From Bacteroidales bacterium (lineage in GTDB: Bacteria > Bacteroidota > Bacteroidia > Bacteroidales > JAFGHD01): a stretch of DNA of 46,109 nucleotides. Shown piece by piece: positions 33,606 through 46,109 of this stretch; the first letter of the stretch is position 1; each line of letters opens with the position of its first letter. The stretch covers positions 1 to 46,109 of the forward strand of contig JAFGHD010000154.1 of NCBI GenBank assembly GCA_016939365.1, in the 5' to 3' direction. Below the pieces are notes generated by a model, which searched no databases, had not been told where the DNA came from, and was given only the letters and a program-made list of their open reading frames with translations. The translations under genes were made by a program, and so were the position numbers.

Positions 33606-35051
33606 CTATTTACCTATTAATAACCAGGCAGTCCTCAACTCATTTGCAGTCCGGAGCATAATTACATACATCCCAGGGATAACATCCGGTAATTTAATCA
33701 GCAGCCGGTTTTCACCGGACCAGACAGGATGACTTCCCGGTAGTTCCATCATCTTTCCGTTGGTATGGACGATGGATACTTCTGCTTTCCCTCCACAGCG
33801 GGCATTGAACACCAGGCTGACCTTATCGCGGGCGGGATTGGGATAAAGGTACAGGTGTATGTCCTGGGCACGGTCAATCCGTTCCGGTATTCCGGGTGCA
33901 ACATACGGGAACAGAAACACCAGTGCATCCTTCAGGTGGCCCTTCCAGTTGCCCCAGCTGTGCCCTTCGTGTATCTCCTGGTAGAGGAGGGGATATCCCC
34001 TCGTCTCCAGGATATCCCGGAGCCCTTTCACCAGGGGTATGAGTTGGGAAATATCATAAGTCCCGATGTCGAGGTATATCTTCAGGTCGAGCAGCGCTCC
34101 CGTCTGGAAACCGCTGGAGATGGCGGACTCCACGTTACCCGAGAAGGCGGCGATCTTGCCGAAGACCTCCGGTTCCTGCCATCCCATCCAGAGGGAGATG
34201 TTGCCCCCGTTGGAAGCCCCGGCTACGGCCCGTGCTTCCGCCTCCGGCCGGATACGGTACCTCCCTTCCAGCCAGGGCATAAGCCCGGAAACGATGAAGG
34301 CTGTGAATTCCTCCTTCTGACTGCCTGCATACTCCGCAGTCCGGTTCACCGGAGGGATGAACACGGCGATCAGCGGCGCGATCAGCTCATGATGGATCAG
34401 ATAGTCCAGAATGTTCACCGCTGCACCGAGCTGCAGGTAGTCCTGACCGTCGTGGAACAGGATCAGCGGATAATTTTCCGTTGAAGTGGAATAACCATGA
34501 GGAACGTACACCCAGACCGTCCTGGAGTTGTTCAGCTCCGTGCTGAAAAATACGCTGTCCCACAGGGTTCCGTGGCTGATGTCCGGATAGTGGAGGATTT
34601 CATCCGGCGGAACATAATCCGGCATCCGGAGCTCGGAATTGGGTCCGAAGCCGCCTGCGCAGCTGTTCGGGTTCTGCGGATCGAGGATCCATGAGGAGCC
34701 GTTCAGGACGAACTTGTAGTCCAGGCGGGCATCGCTTTCGTAATGCGTCACCAGGTACCGGAAGTCGGTGCCGTTGACCTGGATCATCGGGAATGATGCC
34801 GGGTTCCAGCTGTTGGCATCGCCCGGGACCGTTACACTCTGGGCGTTCCCCTTCCAGATGAAACAGGCGGTGGTATCATTGTCCAGGTAAGGCAAAACAG
34901 GATTGGCCGTCAGGAAGCTGTCGGTGACTGCCTGCCGTGCGGACCCGGGCAATGCATATACATGGTCCAGAAAGTCCTGAAAAGTCTGCGCACGGGTGCA
35001 GCCGGCCAGAGTCAGGGACACCACCAGGTTGAACATAAGGATTCGTGTCAT
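33606..35051 (-). CDS. Secreted alpha/beta-hydrolase esterase with T9SS sorting domain
   Basis: A 481-residue secreted enzyme. After a signal sequence, an early-set/CBM48-like region (about 60-150; CFIWKGNAQSVTVPGDANSWNP) precedes an esterase domain (about 160-390) of the Fes/esterase D type with nucleophile Ser280 in GASNGG and a likely catalytic His364 in HEGHSW. The C-terminal ~80 residues (LYPNPARDKVSLVF ... GMYVIMLRTANELRTAWLLI) form a T9SS type A sorting domain, so the protein should be exported across the outer membrane. The signal also contains LAGC, which could be read as a lipobox; AQ at 21-22 is an alternative cleavage site. The substrate may be a siderophore, glycan ester or feruloyl ester. 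It has the best promoter in the window. Confidence 0.88.
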   Translation of the reverse strand: MTRILMFNLVVSLTLAGCTRAQTFQDFLDHVYALPGSARQAVTDSFLTANPVLPYLDNDTTACFIWKGNAQSVTVPGDANSWNPASFPMIQVNGTDFRYLVTHYESDARLDYKFVLNGSSWILDPQNPNSCAGGFGPNSELRMPDYVPPDEILHYPDISHGTLWDSVFFSTELNNSRTVWVYVPHGYSTSTENYPLILFHDGQDYLQLGAAVNILDYLIHHELIAPLIAVFIPPVNRTAEYAGSQKEEFTAFIVSGLMPWLEGRYRIRPEAEARAVAGASNGGNISLWMGWQEPEVFGKIAAFSGNVESAISSGFQTGALLDLKIYLDIGTYDISQLIPLVKGLRDILETRGYPLLYQEIHEGHSWGNWKGHLKDALVFLFPYVAPGIPERIDRAQDIHLYLYPNPARDKVSLVFNARCGGKAEVSIVHTNGKMMELPGSHPVWSGENRLLIKLPDVIPGMYVIMLRTANELRTAWLLIGK

Positions 35052-37311: not shown

Positions 37312-38892
37312 TCATCCTTCACCACGAAGCACCGCCTCGAGATACCAGCGGGTGATCACCGCGTTGAAATAGTAGTAGCGGTCCATCCGGACACCCCTGG
37401 CTTTCATGTCGCGGATCATCTCCCGGGTGACCTCGCTGTAACAGATCGGGTCGTGCCGGGTAAGCCTGCGGCGGATCATCCCCTGCGGGAACAGTTCCTG
37501 CAGCTTTTTCCTGCGTCGCAATCTCCTCGGATCAGGCAGGGTAAAGGGCCTGTCCTCAGGAAAGACCAGCCCCGCGGGGCCAAAGAAATGGCGGACCAGG
37601 ACATCATCATACAACTTCTTGCCCAGCTTGGCATGGAAGGGCAATACCTTGCAGAATTCGATGAGACCGCGTTCCCAGAAGGGAAGCCGGTGCTCAAAAC
37701 CAAAGAAATTGCAGATGTTGCACGAATTGACGACAAACCGGGCCTGCCGGTGCTCCAGATCCCATTGCTCGAACAGGCTGTGCGGCAGGTATCCCTCATC
37801 CATCGGCAGGCTTTCCCGGATCAGATCCCTGAGCTTGTTTTCGATACTGCGGGAGCTTTCAGTCAGCCGGTAATGTCTGATGAACAGGGCTTCGATCACC
37901 TCCTCTTCCGGAGCGCCCGGTGCCAGCGTCGCGTCCAGGTGGCTTCCGCCGAGGAAATCACCGGAATGGCCGGGGATGATCACCGTGCCGGACGGTAAGA
38001 TCCTCTGCTCCGTCAGGCGCTTCATGGCGAAAAACTCCTGCATGTAGAACATGGAAGCATGGTTGGCCGACCAGGGATAATAGGCCCGGAAGACCGGATC
38101 ATCCGGAAATCCCCCGGTAACCTGTTTGTCATACGGGATGTAATGCCATTCAAATCCCAGATTTTCCGCCACTTTCCGGGAGATTTCCGTGTCATGACTT
38201 CCGCGTCGACCGTAGGTGAAGCAGGTGACCGACCGGAATCCCATTGATTTCAGCGTCAGGGCTGCCAGGCGGGAGTCATACCCTCCGCTCAGCGCCACGG
38301 CCACGGGCCGGTCTTTCAGTCCCGCAAGCGTCCGCTGGAACGCCTCCACCAGTACATCCGCCATGGGTTTCCTGAGCTCTTCGACGGAACCTTCCCGCGT
38401 CTTCCTGACCAGGTAATCCGCATAGGCGCGGGTTTCGGCTCCTTTACCCGTGATCCGGAGGATCATGGCGGTGCCCATCTGCCGGATACCGCTGATGAGC
38501 GTCCTGTTGCCCGTAACATAGGCGCAGTGCCTGAACTCCATACAGGACAGGTCATCCTGCCGGTTCAATCCTGTAAGCCTCATGATGGCGGCCGCATCAT
38601 CCGACAATACAAATGGTGACCGTTCCGTAAAGAAGAGCGGGAACATCCGGATCCTGTCGGTGGCCGCGAGGATGGCGTCATCGAGCCGGATGACGATGCT
38701 GAACAGCCCTCCCGATGTCTTCAGCAGTGTTCCGAAGCCTGCGGCATCCGTCACCTGGCTGAACAGCCCTGCCAGGGCGTCCCCTTCATGGAACCTGCCG
38801 TCGGGTGTGGTCAGGTATCCTTTGACGCTGACTTTTCCCCGGTGATGCCAGGGATAGCCCTTGTCCCGGATGAGTTCAATCCTTGCCTCCAT
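37312..38892 (-). CDS. Asparagine-synthase-like enzyme without glutaminase cysteine
   Basis: A 526-residue protein of the asparagine synthetase B/beta-lactam synthetase family. The C-terminal ATP-pyrophosphatase domain has the PP-loop LSGGYDSRLAA (201-211) and FTYGRRGSHDTEISRKVAENLGF, typical of adenylation of a carboxylate. The N-terminal domain keeps the Ntn-fold sequence SGGLFSIVIRLDDAILAATDRIRMFPLFF but begins with Met-Glu, so the essential Cys2 nucleophile of glutamine hydrolysis is absent. It must use free ammonia or another amine, or join two amino/carboxyl groups. It overlaps the flippase gene by 17 nt and lies in a glycan cluster, so amidation of a sugar acid or similar is plausible (inference). 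ATG 38892 is chosen; an upstream extension to 38988 lies inside the flippase gene. Confidence 0.83.
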   Translation of the reverse strand: MEARIELIRDKGYPWHHRGKVSVKGYLTTPDGRFHEGDALAGLFSQVTDAAGFGTLLKTSGGLFSIVIRLDDAILAATDRIRMFPLFFTERSPFVLSDDAAAIMRLTGLNRQDDLSCMEFRHCAYVTGNRTLISGIRQMGTAMILRITGKGAETRAYADYLVRKTREGSVEELRKPMADVLVEAFQRTLAGLKDRPVAVALSGGYDSRLAALTLKSMGFRSVTCFTYGRRGSHDTEISRKVAENLGFEWHYIPYDKQVTGGFPDDPVFRAYYPWSANHASMFYMQEFFAMKRLTEQRILPSGTVIIPGHSGDFLGGSHLDATLAPGAPEEEVIEALFIRHYRLTESSRSIENKLRDLIRESLPMDEGYLPHSLFEQWDLEHRQARFVVNSCNICNFFGFEHRLPFWERGLIEFCKVLPFHAKLGKKLYDDVLVRHFFGPAGLVFPEDRPFTLPDPRRLRRRKKLQELFPQGMIRRRLTRHDPICYSEVTREMIRDMKARGVRMDRYYYFNAVITRWYLEAVLRGEG

Positions 38893-40165
38893 AGGCCCTC
38901 CCGGAGATTCGGATGAAGTAGAAGAATAGGAATATGTTGAATGCCAGGCCGGTGGCTGAATAGAAGATGATGGACCAGATGATGTCATGATAGTAGTGGT
39001 ATCCGGCGTACAGCGCCAGAGCGCGTACGGCCAGCAGCAGGGCGTCGTACCATACCATCTGCCTTTGCCGGCTCAGCACGGTGACGATGTAGGTGATGGG
39101 AGAATTGAGGAAGGCGATGAACAACCATGGGATCAGAAGGCGGGTGTAATGACCTGCAATGTCCCATTCCGGACCGAAGACCACCCTGAAAATCCACGGG
39201 GCGAACAACGCCATCAAGGCAAACGGGATGATCCCGGTACGGAAGAGCCTCCGGTAGGTCTGCCGGACGAATCCGGCGAGCTCCCGGCGGTTGTTGAACC
39301 TGTCTGCAGCCTCCTTGTAGAACACCTGTCCGGCGGACTGTCCCACGAGCCCCATGGGGGTGGTGATGATCCGGTTGGCCAGCCCGTACTGGCTCATCAG
39401 TGCCGGCCCGTAAAACCCGCTGAGCATGAAGACCGGCAGCTGGTTGGAGAGGTTGTTCAGGGCGTCGATCAGGGTGTTGAGCAGGGGAAGGTTCCGGTAT
39501 TTCACCGCCAGCTGCCATAGTTCTGACAGCTTCGTACTCCCTGCATGCCGCATGATGCCGCGGGCTGAACGACCCATCATGACAACGACCGAGACTGCCT
39601 GCCCGGCGATGAGGCCCCATATCAGCCCTGCGGACCGGAAGTCAAGCCAGCCGGCTCCGAGCTGCACCGCACCGGCCGAAGCGCTCCGGCTGATCTTGCC
39701 GGCCGAGATGTGACGGTACCTGTTCGCCCGGTTCGCCCAATACATAAAGGTCTGGAAGATGCCCGTCAGGAAGCTGCTCAACGGCACCAGCCAGAGCCAG
39801 CCGGCAATACCGGGATGCCCCAGCAGGTGCGCAGCAGGATGACGAAAAAGCGCGATGAGAACCAACAACAACAGGCTGACCACGAAGGCCGTGAGAAAGC
39901 TCAGTACGGCCAGCCTCGCACCCTCCCGGTCATCAGAGGGAAGCACCACGGCCAGCTCATACTCCAGCGTGGAGATGATCGAAAGAACCACCACCAGCGA
40001 GGAGTAGATGAAGAAGATACCAAAGACCTCCTCAGGATAGATCCGCGTCAACAGGGGCATCACCAGGATCGGCACCAGCTGCGCCATGGCCGACCCCGAG
40101 AACAGCGTCAGCCAGTTCTTCGAAAATTCATCCCGGATAACCTTATTTACCAACGGTATCTTCAT
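38876..40165 (-). CDS. Polysaccharide flippase (Wzx-like)
   Basis: A 429-residue integral membrane protein of the MOP/MATE-like exporter superfamily with about 12-14 hydrophobic segments. The start (KNWLTLFSGSAMAQLVPILVMPLLTRIYPEEVFGIF) is the classic Wzx/LPS-biosynthesis flippase entry. It would flip lipid-linked oligosaccharide units of a surface polysaccharide across the inner membrane. Its end overlaps the asparagine-synthase-like gene. It is separated from the GT-C gene by 250 nt that contain a long hairpin. No Wzy polymerase is recognisable in the window; the GT-C protein could partly fill the gap. Confidence 0.88.
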   Translation of the reverse strand: MKIPLVNKVIRDEFSKNWLTLFSGSAMAQLVPILVMPLLTRIYPEEVFGIFFIYSSLVVVLSIISTLEYELAVVLPSDDREGARLAVLSFLTAFVVSLLLLVLIALFRHPAAHLLGHPGIAGWLWLVPLSSFLTGIFQTFMYWANRANRYRHISAGKISRSASAGAVQLGAGWLDFRSAGLIWGLIAGQAVSVVVMMGRSARGIMRHAGSTKLSELWQLAVKYRNLPLLNTLIDALNNLSNQLPVFMLSGFYGPALMSQYGLANRIITTPMGLVGQSAGQVFYKEAADRFNNRRELAGFVRQTYRRLFRTGIIPFALMALFAPWIFRVVFGPEWDIAGHYTRLLIPWLFIAFLNSPITYIVTVLSRQRQMVWYDALLLAVRALALYAGYHYYHDIIWSIIFYSATGLAFNIFLFFYFIRISGRAYGGKD

Positions 40166-40415
40166 TCCTGGTTTTCATCTTACAGGCAGAGCGGGTTACA
40201 CTTAATCAGTATTATGATTTTGATATTCAGGCATATTTCATGAGGAGACCGGAACTTATTCGTCTTCAATTCGAGCCTGCCTGCCGCCCAGTGGCCGTAC
40301 GCTGGGCAGGCAGGCATTCGTGGCATAAATATAATAACCCTCATACCCTGCAGGATTTCATACAGATAGTTGATGACCCACCTGATCAGCCAAATTTACG
40401 CCAAAGAGCCGGAAA
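40166..40415. other. Gene-free gap in the glycan cluster
   Basis: No gene is seen between the GT-C and flippase genes, which share a strand. Its main content is the GC-rich hairpin at 40275-40315. A transcript from the FAD oxidoreductase promoter would have to pass it to reach the flippase gene. Confidence 0.6.
40275..40315. repeat. Long GCCTGCC hairpin
   Basis: Arms GCCTGCCT (40275-40282) plus GCCCAG (40286-40291) pair with CTGGGC (40302-40307) plus AGGCAGGC (40308-40315); the only flaw is a 3-nt bulge (GCC). The loop is 10 nt. The AGGCAGGC word is the same as in the tandem array at 28-82, so both may belong to one repeat family. No T-run follows on either side. Confidence 0.75.
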
Positions 40416-42197
40416 TCATATATCCGGTGCAGTCCGGTACAGCCTGAAATATTTGCTTTCTGTCCCGACTGGCTCCGACATGTCCAGTAGGGTCTGCATG
40501 TATATGAACCGTTCCCTGCTGTATTCCATGGGCTCCAGGGGGCTTTCCGCCATTTCGATGGAGTTGAAACGGTCCACCACCAGGAATATTTCGCGGCGGC
40601 TCATCACCTCGCGGATCATCCGCATCAGATGCTCATCCGCCCCCACATGCTCGTTCCGGATCATCCAGTCCAGCGGGAACGGGTTGCGGCTTTCAAGTGC
40701 CGGGTAGATCATGGCGTTGTTCGGCAGCATCACAAACCGGTTTTTCAGTTCGTAATTGTTCCAGAGCTTCATGAAATCCTCATAATATTCAAAGGTGACG
40801 GGGTTGGTATGGATGTGTCCGAAGGCCGGGATCAGGGTTCCCAGGTCGCAGGTCAGTTCGCGGGAAGGTCTGTCCCGGTAGTTGAACCTTCGTTGCCCGT
40901 AAATGGAAACCGCCACCAGGGCGATGAGCATCAGGGCGACCGCCGGGCGAAACCAGGAGAGGCTGAACATCCCGGGCCAGGATTCATCGAGCAGCAGATA
41001 GATGATATATGCGTTCATCACCGCCAGGATGCCGAAGGTGTAAATGGGAGAGTTGGCGCCCAGCGATATGGATGATGTCCATGCCAGCACGATGCCCGGG
41101 ATGAGGATAACTGCCTCCCGTCTGCCGGTCAGTCCCCTTGCCCATGCAACGGAGAGCAGCGCCGTCAGCGCCCAGAAGAACTCGAAGGGTACCGTCTTGT
41201 AATCCCGGTAAAAGAAAAACACGGACAGCCCGGCGACCAGGACGGCTGTATAAATGACCAGGATGCTTTTCCAGCGGATACCCCGGTCACGGACGATCAC
41301 ATCAATGCCCCTTTTCAGAAATGCGCACAACTTCCTGTAAATCCCGGCCTTCTCAGCGATGACCGCAGCTATCAGCGCGAGGTTGAACGGCATCAGCCAC
41401 GCTTTGATGAATGATTTGACATAGCGCAGGATACCCGTTTCGAACAGCTCGGTGCGTCCGGTCATCTGGCTGATGAACTCATCCAGCGCGCCGTGTATCC
41501 AGAGGTACAGGATATACAAGACCAGCGGCAGGATGCCGGCAACCGGTATCAGGATGGCGGATCCCCGCTTTTTTCTGAAAATGCCCTCCAGGAAGATCCA
41601 TGCCGAAAGGAAGAGCCAAAGAAACAGGAAGTTCTGCTTGCACAGTGCCGCCATGGCTGCCAGCCAGAGCGACGCCGTCAGATGATTGAACCTGCCTCCC
41701 GGAGCCACTCCCGCCATCCCGGCCCGTGCGAAAAGGACGATGCTGCAGACGCTGAAACAGACTCCGTCGATGGTCGTCCATGGGTAGAGATGGAAGGTGT
41801 TCAGATTCAGGATGAATGCCGGGATGCCGGCCGCTGCAAAAAGGAACAGGCGTGATCCTTTGCGCAGGTGTCCGGCGAAGGTACCGGTGATCAGCCAGGC
41901 GAACAGGAATGAGAAGAAGAAAATCTCTGCGGTGACGAACCAGCGGCCGCTGATCGCCAGCGGAAGGGGGGAGAAGAAATGCACAGTATGTATCCAGCCC
42001 GACAGTGCCGGCCGGATCGAGATGAAGTCGCGGTGCGGCACCTCACCGTGCAGCAGCCGCCACGACTGTGCCGGCACCACCCCGTCATCGGTCGGGCTGA
42101 AGCCTTCGTTCTCAGGGAAACGCAACAGGATGAACAGGATGCAAAACAGGGCGGCAACGGCCAGGCCTGTCAGGAGATTCCCGCTATTTGCTCTCAT
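40416..42197 (-). CDS. GT-C-like multi-pass membrane protein
   Basis: A 593-residue membrane protein with about 11-13 hydrophobic segments and a soluble C-terminal region of about 130 residues. After the first membrane helix comes [25 protein letters not shown]; the Asp37-Asp38 pair in the first outer loop is where GT-C glycosyltransferases (PMT/ArnT-like) carry their catalytic acidic residue. It would transfer a sugar from a polyprenyl-phosphate donor on the periplasmic face. I cannot name the donor or acceptor. It overlaps the FAD oxidoreductase gene by 14 nt, so the two are coupled. A Wzy-type polymerase is a less likely alternative. Confidence 0.68.
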
Positions 42198-43767
42198 GGT
42201 ATTCCTGTTCGGTGTTGATGTTCCAGATGCTCTCCTTGTCCACCGTGCCGGCGATGATGTGGTCCACCGCCGTCATGGCCGTGAGCATGGAGTGGTCCTG
42301 GTTGTTGTATTTGTGCATGCCGTTGCGGCCGATGAGGAAGAGGTTTCCGAAGCCGTCCAGGTATTGCCGCACCACGTCGAAGCGGTCGTAGGTGCCGAAG
42401 TAGGCGGGGTAGGTCTTGGGCATGCGGATGACCAGGCCGTCCAGGTAGTCCTCACTGCCGATGAAGCCGATGCGGGCCAGCTCATCCACGGCGAACCGCA
42501 CCAGATCGGCATCCTTCATTCTCCAGACATCATCCCCTTCGTTGCAGAAATACTCCAGTCCGATCCAGACCGTATCCGGGTCGGCCACCATGTAAGGGCT
42601 CCAGTTGTTGAACAGCTGTATCCTGCCGATCTTCACATCCCGTTCCTGGACGTAGATCCAGCAATCCGGGATCAGGCGGCCATCAACGGAGGCCACCCTC
42701 AGCTTTTTCAGAAGCAATCCGACCGTGATGAAGTCGCGGTAGACCAGCCCTTCGGCCACCTCCCTGACCGGGTCGGGCACGGGTGTGTCCATGGCGCGGA
42801 TGAGGTCCCTGACCGGCATGCTGCTGAAGATGTAACCGGCACGGAAGGACAGCTCCTCACCCGTTTCGAGGTGGATGGCTTTGACACCGGTGATGGTGTT
42901 CCCGGAGACCTGCAGGCCAGTCACCCTGTGGCGGCAGAGCACCTCGCCGCCCTGTTCCGTGACCCGGCGGGCGGTCTCCTCCCACATCTGGCCGGGACCG
43001 TACTTCGGGTAGAGGAACTGCTCGATCAGGCTGGTCTCCTTCTCTTTCTGGGAGATGGATTTGTCTTTTTTCAGGATGGACGAGACGGCATTGCCGATCA
43101 CCTTCGAGACCGAGAGCCCCTTGATGCGCTGGGCGCCCCATTCTGACGGTATCTCCCTGCAGGGCACCCCCCAGACCTTCTCGGTGTAGTCGCGGAAGAA
43201 GGTGCGGTAGAGCTCCCCGCCGAAGCGGTTGATCATGAAATCCTCCAGGGATTTTTCCTTCCGGACCGGGAAGAGCTTAACCCACAGGTATCCCGCCACG
43301 ATGCGGATGATCCGGATCAGTCCAAGGTTCCGGATGGTGTTGAGGTTGAGCGTGACCGGGTAATCGAAGAACTTCCGGAGGTAGAGGATGCGTGAGACGC
43401 GTTTACGCAGCAGCATGAGCCGGTCTTCCTGGTCAGGGTCGCCGCCCTCCTGCGGGATGGCCAGTCCGCGTTTCTTCCCCTGGTAGGCGATCTCACCCCC
43501 CGCACCTTCCGGCAGCTTCTGCAGGGGGAGGATATCGAGCCACCACTGCATGACGCGGTCGCTCTTGGAGAAGAAGCGGTGCCCGCCGATATCGATACGG
43601 TTGCCTTTGTGGTTGACGGTGCGGGAAATACCACCCGGTTGTGCATCCTGTTCGAGCACAATGGGCCGGATACCCGCCCTGGTGATCAGCTCATAAGCCG
43701 CCGTGAGCCCCGCCGGCCCCGCCCCGATGATGACCGCAGTCCTTTCCCGCTTTACCGGCTTATTCAT
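42184..43767 (-). CDS. FAD-dependent oxidoreductase (UDP-galactopyranose-mutase/protoporphyrinogen-oxidase-like)
   Basis: A 527-residue flavoprotein. The N-terminal FAD-binding motif is [16 protein letters not shown] (12-27), followed by [14 protein letters not shown] and [14 protein letters not shown], the conserved FAD-clamping region of the amine-oxidase/UGM-like superfamily. The C-terminus has the second FAD motif [20 protein letters not shown], close to the pattern in Glf-like enzymes. In polysaccharide clusters such proteins are thought to act on nucleotide- or lipid-linked sugars; the reaction is not known. ATG 43767 is chosen because family homology and a -7 promoter box (43792-43799) support it over 43803. 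It is first in a four-gene cluster and overlaps the GT-C gene. Confidence 0.82.
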
Positions 43768-44196: not shown

Positions 44197-44985
44197 ATGG
44201 GAAAACATTTAAAATTAGTTTCGACAGAATATCTACAAGAATATTCAAATAAAGTAAAAATTAACTGGTTGGATGTATTTAATAAATTAAAAGCCAAAAC
44301 TCATTTCACGCTTGAGGATTTTGAATATTATATTATATCATCATCTCTTTATTCTTCAAAAATTGAAGGTAATACACTTGATGCTAATAGCTTTTTTAGA
44401 AATCGCGGAAAGAAAACATCTCCAAAGAAAAAAGAAGTTCAAGAAATTGAAACACTAATGGAAGCATATAAATTTGCATCCGAAAACAAACTAAATCGAA
44501 CAAACTTTTTTAAAACTCATGCTATTTTATCAAAAACATTACTCCCTGCTAAGGAAAGAGGTGTTTTAAGAAAAGAACAAGTTGGAGTAAGGGATTCAAA
44601 AACATTAAAGCCCGTATATTTAGCAGTAGAACCACAATTTTTAAAAGAAGAATTTAGCAAACTATTTGATGATATTGATGAATTATTAAAAAGAGATTTA
44701 AGTCATAAGGAAATCTTTTATTTTGCTTCAATGATTCATATTTGGTTGGCTAAAATACATCCTTTCAGCGATGGTAATGGACGGTCTGCAAGATTATTAG
44801 AAAAATGGTTTTTAGTATCTAAACTTGGAATGTCTGCGTGGTCAATTAACTCCGAAAAGTATTATTGGGATAATCGCCCTGATTATTATCAAAATATTGC
44901 GCTTGGGTATAACTATTATGTTCTTTATTGGAACAGATGTATTCCGTTTTTATTAATGTTGCCAAAAGCTATGCAGTTGTCTTAA
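44197..44985 (+). CDS. Fic family AMP-transferase
   Basis: A 262-residue Fic/DOC-superfamily protein. The catalytic loop HPFSDGNGR (188-196) matches HPFx(D/E)GNGR completely, so it should be active in transferring AMP (or a related group) from a nucleotide to a target hydroxyl. An inhibitory helix motif SSKIEGN (Ser53, Glu57, Gly58) lies N-terminal to the core, the class II arrangement in which Glu57 blocks ATP. The target is unknown. It is strongly AT-rich compared with the rest of the window and follows a small unknown gene, so it is probably horizontally acquired. Roles in stress, defence or toxin-like growth control are all possible. Confidence 0.92.
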   Translation: MGKHLKLVSTEYLQEYSNKVKINWLDVFNKLKAKTHFTLEDFEYYIISSSLYSSKIEGNTLDANSFFRNRGKKTSPKKKEVQEIETLMEAYKFASENKLNRTNFFKTHAILSKTLLPAKERGVLRKEQVGVRDSKTLKPVYLAVEPQFLKEEFSKLFDDIDELLKRDLSHKEIFYFASMIHIWLAKIHPFSDGNGRSARLLEKWFLVSKLGMSAWSINSEKYYWDNRPDYYQNIALGYNYYVLYWNRCIPFLLMLPKAMQLS

Positions 44986-45052: not shown

Positions 45053-46109
45053 TTATCTCTTGATAATTTTTGTTGTCAATACTTCGTTATCTGTTTGAAT
45101 GCTGACAATGTAAATTCCACTTTCAAAATTTGATAAATCTATGGTTTCCTTTTGTTGTAATTCTGTTTTTTCAATTACCTGTTTCCCTGCTATATTTAAA
45201 ATTACTAATCTTTTAATGTTGTTGTTTGAATACTCAAGAATAAATTTTTCGGTTGTAGGATTAGGATGAATGGAGATTCCATATTTTGATTTTTCAGAAA
45301 TATTTGCATATGGACTTTGGAAGACACGCACATGTCCAGCATCATATCCATTTCCGGTATTCCATGGTGCTCCTATTGCTATAATTGAACCATTGGAACT
45401 TAAACTTACTGATGTTCCAGAATGGTCATCAAATGCTTCCCCGTCAATATCCATCCCGATCTTTGTCCATGTCCCGTTTTGGTTTTCAAAGATACGAACA
45501 TGGCCGACAGGATAATTATTGTTTCCATAATTATATGGAGCACCAATTGCTACAATTGATCCTTGATAACTTAAACTTACTGAAGTACCGGACTTGTCAT
45601 ATTCAGCTTCACCATCAATATTTTGCCCGATTTGTGTCCATGTTCCACTTTGGTTTTCAAAGATACGAACATAGTTATTTGAACCACCAAGTAAAGCTCC
45701 TGGAGCCCCTACTGCTAAGGTTAAGCCATTAGAACTTAAACTCACGGAGTAGCCGAAACAGTCACCCGGAATTTCCCCTTCAATATTTTGCCCGATTTGT
45801 GTCCATGTTCCACTTTGGTTTTCAAAGACACGAACAGAGCCTGCAAACTGATTATTCCATAGAATTCTCGGTGCTCCAACAGCTACAACTGAGCCTTCAG
45901 AACTTATATCAACCGACCAGCCAGAAAAGTCATCTACATTTCCACCGTCAATATCCTGCCCGATCTGTGTCCATGTTCCGTTCTGATTTTCATATATACG
46001 CACATGACCGCCAAACTGGTAAGTGACTATTCCGGCCCAATCAGCGCCACCCATTCCGGAGGAATCAGCGCCATTGATTCCGGCGCAAACGGCGCCACCC
46101 TGTGGAGGC
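45053..46109 (-). CDS. T9SS-secreted repeat protein, partial at the right edge
   Basis: The frame is open to the last base of the window, so the N-terminus is missing. From the Met at 46054 the visible 333 residues hold four repeats of 55-57 residues, each with VRI(F/Y)ENQxGTWTQIG, then (D/N)I(D/E)G, SGxSVSLSSxGS and VAVGAP, plus a fifth partial start (HVRVFQ). This resembles FG-GAP/integrin-like beta-propeller blades. Residues about 262-333 (IHPNPTTEKFILEYS ... GIYIVSIQTDNEVLTTKIIKR) are a T9SS type A sorting domain, so it is an exported surface or secreted protein. Repeats are AT-rich; upstream of them the frame continues through a GC-rich 24-nt tandem repeat (46029-46100) coding an 8-residue unit. 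No signal peptide is visible in the window. Confidence 0.82.
   Translation of the reverse strand, partial: PPQGGAVCAGINGADSSGMGGADWAGIVTYQFGGHVRIYENQNGTWTQIGQDIDGGNVDDFSGWSVDISSEGSVVAVGAPRILWNNQFAGSVRVFENQSGTWTQIGQNIEGEIPGDCFGYSVSLSSNGLTLAVGAPGALLGGSNNYVRIFENQSGTWTQIGQNIDGEAEYDKSGTSVSLSYQGSIVAIGAPYNYGNNNYPVGHVRIFENQNGTWTKIGMDIDGEAFDDHSGTSVSLSSNGSIIAIGAPWNTGNGYDAGHVRVFQSPYANISEKSKYGISIHPNPTTEKFILEYSNNNIKRLVILNIAGKQVIEKTELQQKETIDLSNFESGIYIVSIQTDNEVLTTKIIKR
46029..46100. repeat. Three tandem 24-nt repeats at the right edge
   Basis: Units 46029-46052, 46053-46076 and 46077-46100 each begin ATTCCGG and contain a central CAA/GAA and (A/G)GCGCCA. They are GC-rich against an AT-rich neighbour. Read on the minus strand in the frame of the T9SS gene they code an 8-residue unit of the form (G/N)GA(D/V)x(A/S)G(I/M). 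The array probably continues beyond the window. Confidence 0.8.

Follow-up and report, generated by a model that had tools for sequence, protein, structure and literature searches.

In Porphyromonas gingivalis, the wzx gene porS (PGN_1235), whose product has been reported to have Wzx activity (PMC3684754), is directly followed by the AsnB-family gene wbpS (PGN_1234) in the order porR-porS-wbpS (PMC7468200). The wbpS gene is required for a uronamide that is found in the linker of T9SS cargo. When it is deleted, the glucuronamide of the linking sugar becomes glucuronic acid, a shift of +1 Da, and cargo attachment continues; T. forsythia, which lacks wbpS, has its linking sugar in the acid form (PMC7468200). 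In the same Wbp/Vim pathway, VimA has been proposed to transfer an amino acid (PMC7468200), and the pathway genes are scattered in the P. gingivalis genome (PMC13086638). The linking sugar differs among species, P. intermedia having another one (PMC11969387).

Other members of the AsnB family provide two further points of comparison. P. aeruginosa WbpS, to which together with TIGR03108 the P. gingivalis enzyme was placed closest by its authors, and E. coli O121 WbqG, of the same TIGR03108 group, are proposed or have been shown to amidate N-acetylated hexuronic acids (PMC7468200). CarA, beta-lactam synthetase and the lasso cyclases likewise combine an AsnB scaffold with a degenerate glutaminase domain and an intact ATP site, but they form intramolecular amides on small molecules or peptides.

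Here we describe a locus of a Bacteroidales bacterium that resembles the porS-wbpS region. The stretch of DNA analysed, hereafter the window, is 46,109 nucleotides long and is one entire contig (C183) of a 3.67-Mb genome in 197 contigs. As in P. gingivalis, an AsnB-family gene lies directly downstream of wzx, the remaining pathway genes are scattered, and VimA, VimE, Wbp enzymes and a T9SS sortase are encoded in the genome. Unlike in P. gingivalis, there is no wbpE (porR) directly upstream, and the likeness described here is one of gene order and content. We propose, at a probability of roughly 0.7, that the ligase is WbpS-type and the flippase a PorS-type Wzx of the Wbp/Vim pathway, and that the sugar probably links T9SS cargo via PorU.

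Results

Gene layout

Positions 37312-43767 hold four genes, all on the minus strand, as two overlapping pairs (Table 1), an arrangement already recognised in an earlier sequence-only reading of this DNA. The UGM-like gene overlaps GTC by 14 nt, and with Met33 as the ligase start the overlap between WZX and the ligase gene comes to 17 nt. The ORF of the ligase begins at 38988; because its residues 1-32 resemble no relative and Met33 (38892) is preceded by a GGGAGGG stretch, with GGGAGGGCCT upstream, Met33 is the likely start. The gap between the two pairs is consistent with two modules.

Table 1. Features of the four-gene region of the window
Feature	Coordinates	Strand	Basis
WbpS-like glutaminase-less AsnB-family ligase, 526 aa	37312..38892	-	PF00733, 47-sequence alignment, profile alignment, tree
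PorS/Wzx-like polysaccharide flippase (WZX), 429 aa	38876..40165	-	PF13440/PF01943, upstream homologues in ligase loci
250-nt gap separating the two overlapping gene pairs	40166..40415	-	sequence
GT-C-like polytopic membrane protein (GTC), 593 aa, partner of the UGM-like protein	40416..42197	-	topology, motif
UGM-like flavoenzyme, NF005546/PRK07208 type, 527 aa from the ATG at 43767	42184..43767	-	NF005546, UGM residues

Two other parts of the window deserve mention. The product of the gene at 33606-35051 is an esterase that combines a CBM48-like domain with a T9SS C-terminal sorting domain and may be T9SS cargo. Toward the contig end (43900-46109) the GC content drops sharply: over a few hundred bases it goes from about 60% to 27-40%. 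A Fic protein (44197-44985) and an FG-GAP/T9SS-tail protein (45053-46108) are encoded in this end, which is either a low-GC island or a sign of a chimeric contig.

A ligase without a glutaminase nucleophile

The ligase matches PF00733 at 45.1 bits (cut-off 21), and a Pfam domain search returned no GATase domain match in it. In a profile alignment with seven canonical AsnB proteins, it could be aligned only from residue 54 of canonical AsnB, and both Cys2 and the HRGPD stretch are absent. The SGGxDS(R) motif and the second D motif, PGHSGD, are nevertheless retained, and across a 47-sequence family alignment they are invariant or nearly so. The sequence-only reading had described an enzyme that keeps its ATP site but has lost the glutaminase nucleophile, and had named loss of ATP-site residues as a sign against it; the alignments agree with the description, and no such loss is seen in these two motifs. 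At the AsnB catalytic lysine, a gap falls beside K424-K425 of the ligase in the profile alignment, a placement that is not confident.

The truncation is shared by the family. Members with a complete N-terminus start near a GxxW...VKGY motif and have neither Cys2 nor HRGPD, and the N-terminal extensions of a few family ORFs are probably start calls placed upstream. A tree built from 46 family members and 7 canonical AsnB proteins separates the family from canonical AsnB with 100/100 support; the window ligase groups, with weak support, beside that of locus L034, where the ligase gene adjoins VimA-VimE.

Against the model for glutamine-hydrolysing asparagine synthetase (TIGR01536) the ligase scores 50.1 bits, below the cut-off of 267.1, and a glutamine-dependent AsnB is ruled out by the missing nucleophile-carrying segment in the ligase and the relatives examined. 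Membership of the XrtA/PEP-CTERM amidotransferase group (TIGR03108) was also rejected: the score is 33.4 bits, far under the cut-off of 816.9, and the alignment begins only at position 127 of 628. In failing this model the window ligase differs from P. aeruginosa WbpS and E. coli O121 WbqG. The gene content does parallel that of the XrtA/PEP-CTERM set, with VimA-like/FemAB, deacetylase and AsnB-like genes, a parallel that has been pointed out before (PMC7468200).

The same genome encodes a second AsnB-like protein (contig C102, L200:9237-11081), which starts MSGLFGI, has Ser in the place of Cys2 and retains the remainder of a GATase domain. Its gene lies inside a large polysaccharide locus and adjoins a gene that resembles N-acetyl sugar amidotransferases and has no Pfam match.

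With the glutaminase half lost family-wide and CarA among the PDB profile matches, one may ask whether the ligase joins an amine or amino acid, instead of ammonia, to the sugar carboxylate, in the manner of the beta-lactam/carbapenam synthetases and lasso cyclases that share a scaffold without Cys2. We consider this improbable. The lasso cyclase model NF033535 gives only 30.6 bits against a cut-off of 525, and no precursor or pathway of the carbapenam, beta-lactam or lasso type was found near the window genes. In P. gingivalis, the +1 Da change on loss of WbpS corresponds to an acid in place of a primary amide (PMC7468200). Moreover, the amino acid in the Wbp/Vim pathway is assigned to VimA, which makes the amino-acid attachment that the sequence-only reading had also entertained for the ligase less likely. 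Its other suggestion, amidation of a uronic acid, is the one favoured by the wbpS precedent: judging by its sequence, the ligase is most likely an ATP-dependent enzyme that lacks the glutaminase nucleophile and amidates a uronic acid. The lost glutaminase half, taken with the primary amide known in P. gingivalis, suggests ammonia as its nitrogen donor.

The flippase and ligase genes form a conserved unit

WZX matches PF13440 at 56.7 bits (cut-off 23) and, also above the cut-off, Polysacc_synt (PF01943) at 33.9 bits, in keeping with the Wzx-type flippase named earlier. The ligase subfamily is present in 16 of 149 genomes of the order, the window's genome counted, with 26-37% identity for the other 15, and in 45 of 392 genomes of a second order sample. 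A wider scan recovered relatives from Bacteroidota, Delongbacteria, Cloacimonadota, Bacillota, Pseudomonadota and methanogenic archaea; the methanogen relatives (L131, L140, L142 and L151) come from Methanoculleus, Methanosarcina and Methanomassiliicoccus.

The WZX-ligase pair is a conserved unit. Among 91 non-redundant ligase loci, the window excluded, 59 have a WZX homologue within six genes of the ligase, and in 51 of the 91 it lies upstream on the same strand, either directly (31 loci) or two genes away (20). The gene between flippase and ligase is a GT4 glycosyltransferase in 14 loci and a PGA_cap protein in 5. The earlier statement that no cytoplasmic glycosyltransferase is present thus holds within the window but not for these 14 relatives. 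Altogether, seven loci (L035, L037, L091, L115, L120, L129 and L131) have a CapA/PGA_cap-like protein adjacent or close to the ligase, five times between flippase and ligase.

In relatives from other phyla, the pair is joined by sugar-biosynthesis genes. We called these by family: WbpA as UDP-sugar dehydrogenases, WbpB as Gfo/Idh/MocA oxidoreductases, WbpD as hexapeptide acyltransferases, WbpE as DegT aminotransferases, WbpI as UDP-GlcNAc 2-epimerases, VimE as DUF7033 proteins and VimA as PF13480/FemAB-like proteins. The proteins called VimE match the NCBIfam model NF053580, UDP-2,3-diacetamido-glucuronate deacetylase VimE, at E-values of 1e-47 to 3e-53, under its strict cut-off. Ligase, flippase, Wbp and Vim genes occur together in three loci, from Colwellia (L113), Ruminiclostridium (L130) and Selenomonas (L122), the Colwellia order being WbpA-WbpB-WbpD-WbpE-WZX-ligase-formyltransferase-like-VimA-VimE-WbpI-GT. 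Operons that join all four kinds of gene therefore exist in Gammaproteobacteria and Firmicutes. Six further loci have four Wbp enzymes and the flippase without Vim genes, and in Bacillales and Pseudoalteromonas WZX-ligase is accompanied by Wbp genes.

The UGM-like and GTC genes are a separate module

The UGM-like protein scores 826.6 bits against NF005546 (cut-off 418) and is homologous to Aspergillus UGM (AfUGM, 3ute; E 4e-23), in agreement with the earlier description of a UGM-like flavoenzyme. Its R214, Y372, R382, Y487 and N489 are invariant and align to AfUGM R182, Y317, R327, Y453 and N457, which we take to be the catalytic residues of that enzyme. Against the bacterial UGM model TIGR00031 it reaches 24.3 bits, below 303.75. 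The flavin fold and the catalytic Arg, Tyr and Asn residues are thus those of the eukaryotic-type UDP-galactopyranose mutase, and their retention makes mutase chemistry plausible. The protein differs from that enzyme in belonging to an uncharacterised group, PRK07208, that pairs with GT-C-like membrane proteins.

About 12 hydrophobic segments can be counted in GTC, and its first loop bears an acidic motif that is invariant in an 11-sequence family, but no Pfam or PDB match was obtained for it. The GT-C-like transferase of the sequence-only reading accordingly stands on topology and motif. The UGM-like/GTC pair may make and transfer a furanose-type sugar; our literature search for such a pair turned up nothing useful. 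The pairing of a PRK07208 protein with a GT-C-like membrane protein recurs in many Bacteroidota (L155-L164, L167). In further genomes the UGM-like gene lies beside other GT-C-like membrane proteins, once with GtrA.

Could the four genes nonetheless be one functional unit in this lineage, with UGM-like and GTC modifying the glycan amidated by the ligase? The two genomes of the order that have both a close UGM-like protein and the ligase, the window's and G086, belong to different families, and each groups UGM, GTC and ligase, the order in G086 being different from that in the window; the G086 grouping makes a functional link possible. Elsewhere the two parts go separate ways. At least six relatives in the order have UGM-GTC but no ligase (G023, G034, G066, G099, G136 and G147, with one extra gene between the two in G034 and G147), and most ligase-bearing genomes have no UGM-GTC. 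In G099 the neighbourhood is the same as in the window, UGM-GTC-flippase-NadR-PnuC, but the flippase is unrelated and on the opposite strand, and the ligase is missing; this arrangement suggests an insertion of WZX-ligase between GTC and NadR-PnuC. We regard a single unit as unlikely, and the UGM-like/GTC pair is an independent neighbouring module. All four genes occur together only in the window, so that a conserved four-gene cluster is ruled out by synteny in favour of two modules.

Pathway genes elsewhere in the genome

In the window, the ligase has neither Wbp nor Vim genes as neighbours. VimE and VimA are encoded side by side on contig C126, the VimE matching NF053580 with an E-value of 3e-53 and 181 bits, under the 440-bit cut-off. 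WbpD-WbpB-WbpA lie on C102 (WbpB, E 8.6e-109), and a DegT protein is the candidate WbpE. Two tandem PorU-type sortases are encoded on C179, and proteins with T9SS tails are present in the window itself. The genome also has a VimA/FemAB-like paralogue (C131, L190:4252-5304), encoded in another polysaccharide locus alongside Wzx-like, glycosyltransferase and O-antigen-ligase-like genes. The idea of a stand-alone, compact decoration module does not survive these findings, the P. gingivalis genes being scattered likewise (PMC7468200, PMC13086638).

All 16 ligase-bearing genomes of the order have VimE, compared with 110 of 149 overall (hypergeometric p 0.006), and all 16 have VimA, compared with 117 of 149 (p 0.016); both p values treat genomes as independent and ignore kinship. 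The genus mate G001 has VimA and VimE without the ligase, like T. forsythia.

Discussion

From gene content, synteny, co-occurrence and the retention and loss of motifs we infer the substrate, the use of ammonia, the product and the cargo linkage of the proposed pathway as follows. The Wbp enzymes, whose genes lie outside the window, would make UDP-2,3-diacetamido-2,3-dideoxy-glucuronic acid; VimE would take off one acetyl group, and VimA would add an amino acid to the freed amine. The ligase would use ATP to activate the C-6 carboxylate and convert it to a primary amide. Given that the nucleophile-carrying half of its glutaminase domain is missing, the ammonia would have to be free in solution or be supplied by another enzyme. 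The flippase would carry the lipid-linked glycan across the inner membrane, and the finished sugar would probably join T9SS cargo to surface polysaccharide via PorU. Amidation of a uronic acid by the ligase is supported, and such a pathway is already described in P. gingivalis. The suggestion of the sequence-only reading that the locus represents an undescribed pathway has to be given up, considering that wbpS downstream of porS has been shown to be necessary for the uronamide (PMC7468200).

The same chemistry could instead serve the uronic acid of an ordinary secreted or O-type polysaccharide, with no link to T9SS cargo. Bacillales, Pseudoalteromonas, Methanosarcina and Methanoculleus, in which no T9SS is expected, have relatives of the ligase, several of them in full polysaccharide loci that have Wbp but no Vim genes. 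In the window's own genome, WbpD-B-A open a large EPS locus with Wza, Wzc, Wzy-like, Wzx-like and DegT-like genes, those without a Pfam match named by eye from sequence. Pointing the other way are the presence of VimA and VimE in every ligase-bearing genome of the order, the two PorU sortases, and the location of the P. gingivalis uronamide in the cargo linker (PMC7468200). We therefore treat an ordinary polysaccharide as a reasonable minority reading and retain the PorS/WbpS-type pathway with its probable T9SS cargo linkage as the preferred one for this organism. The T9SS step does not hold for the ligase family as a whole, since a T9SS role is not expected in its Firmicutes and archaeal members.

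Beyond this organism, the AsnB-like ligases linked to Wzx fall into a single glutaminase-less clade that spans phyla and includes archaea. NCBIfam has no model specific to it, and our literature search found no description of a class of glutaminase-less uronate amidotransferases. We tentatively suggest, at somewhat less than even odds, that they are a distinct and as yet unnamed class of glutaminase-less uronic-acid amidating enzymes that use free ammonia or an amine in Bacteroidota, Bacillota, Pseudomonadota and methanogenic archaea. If this is true, the amidation of surface sugars would be tied to the supply of ammonia, not of glutamine.
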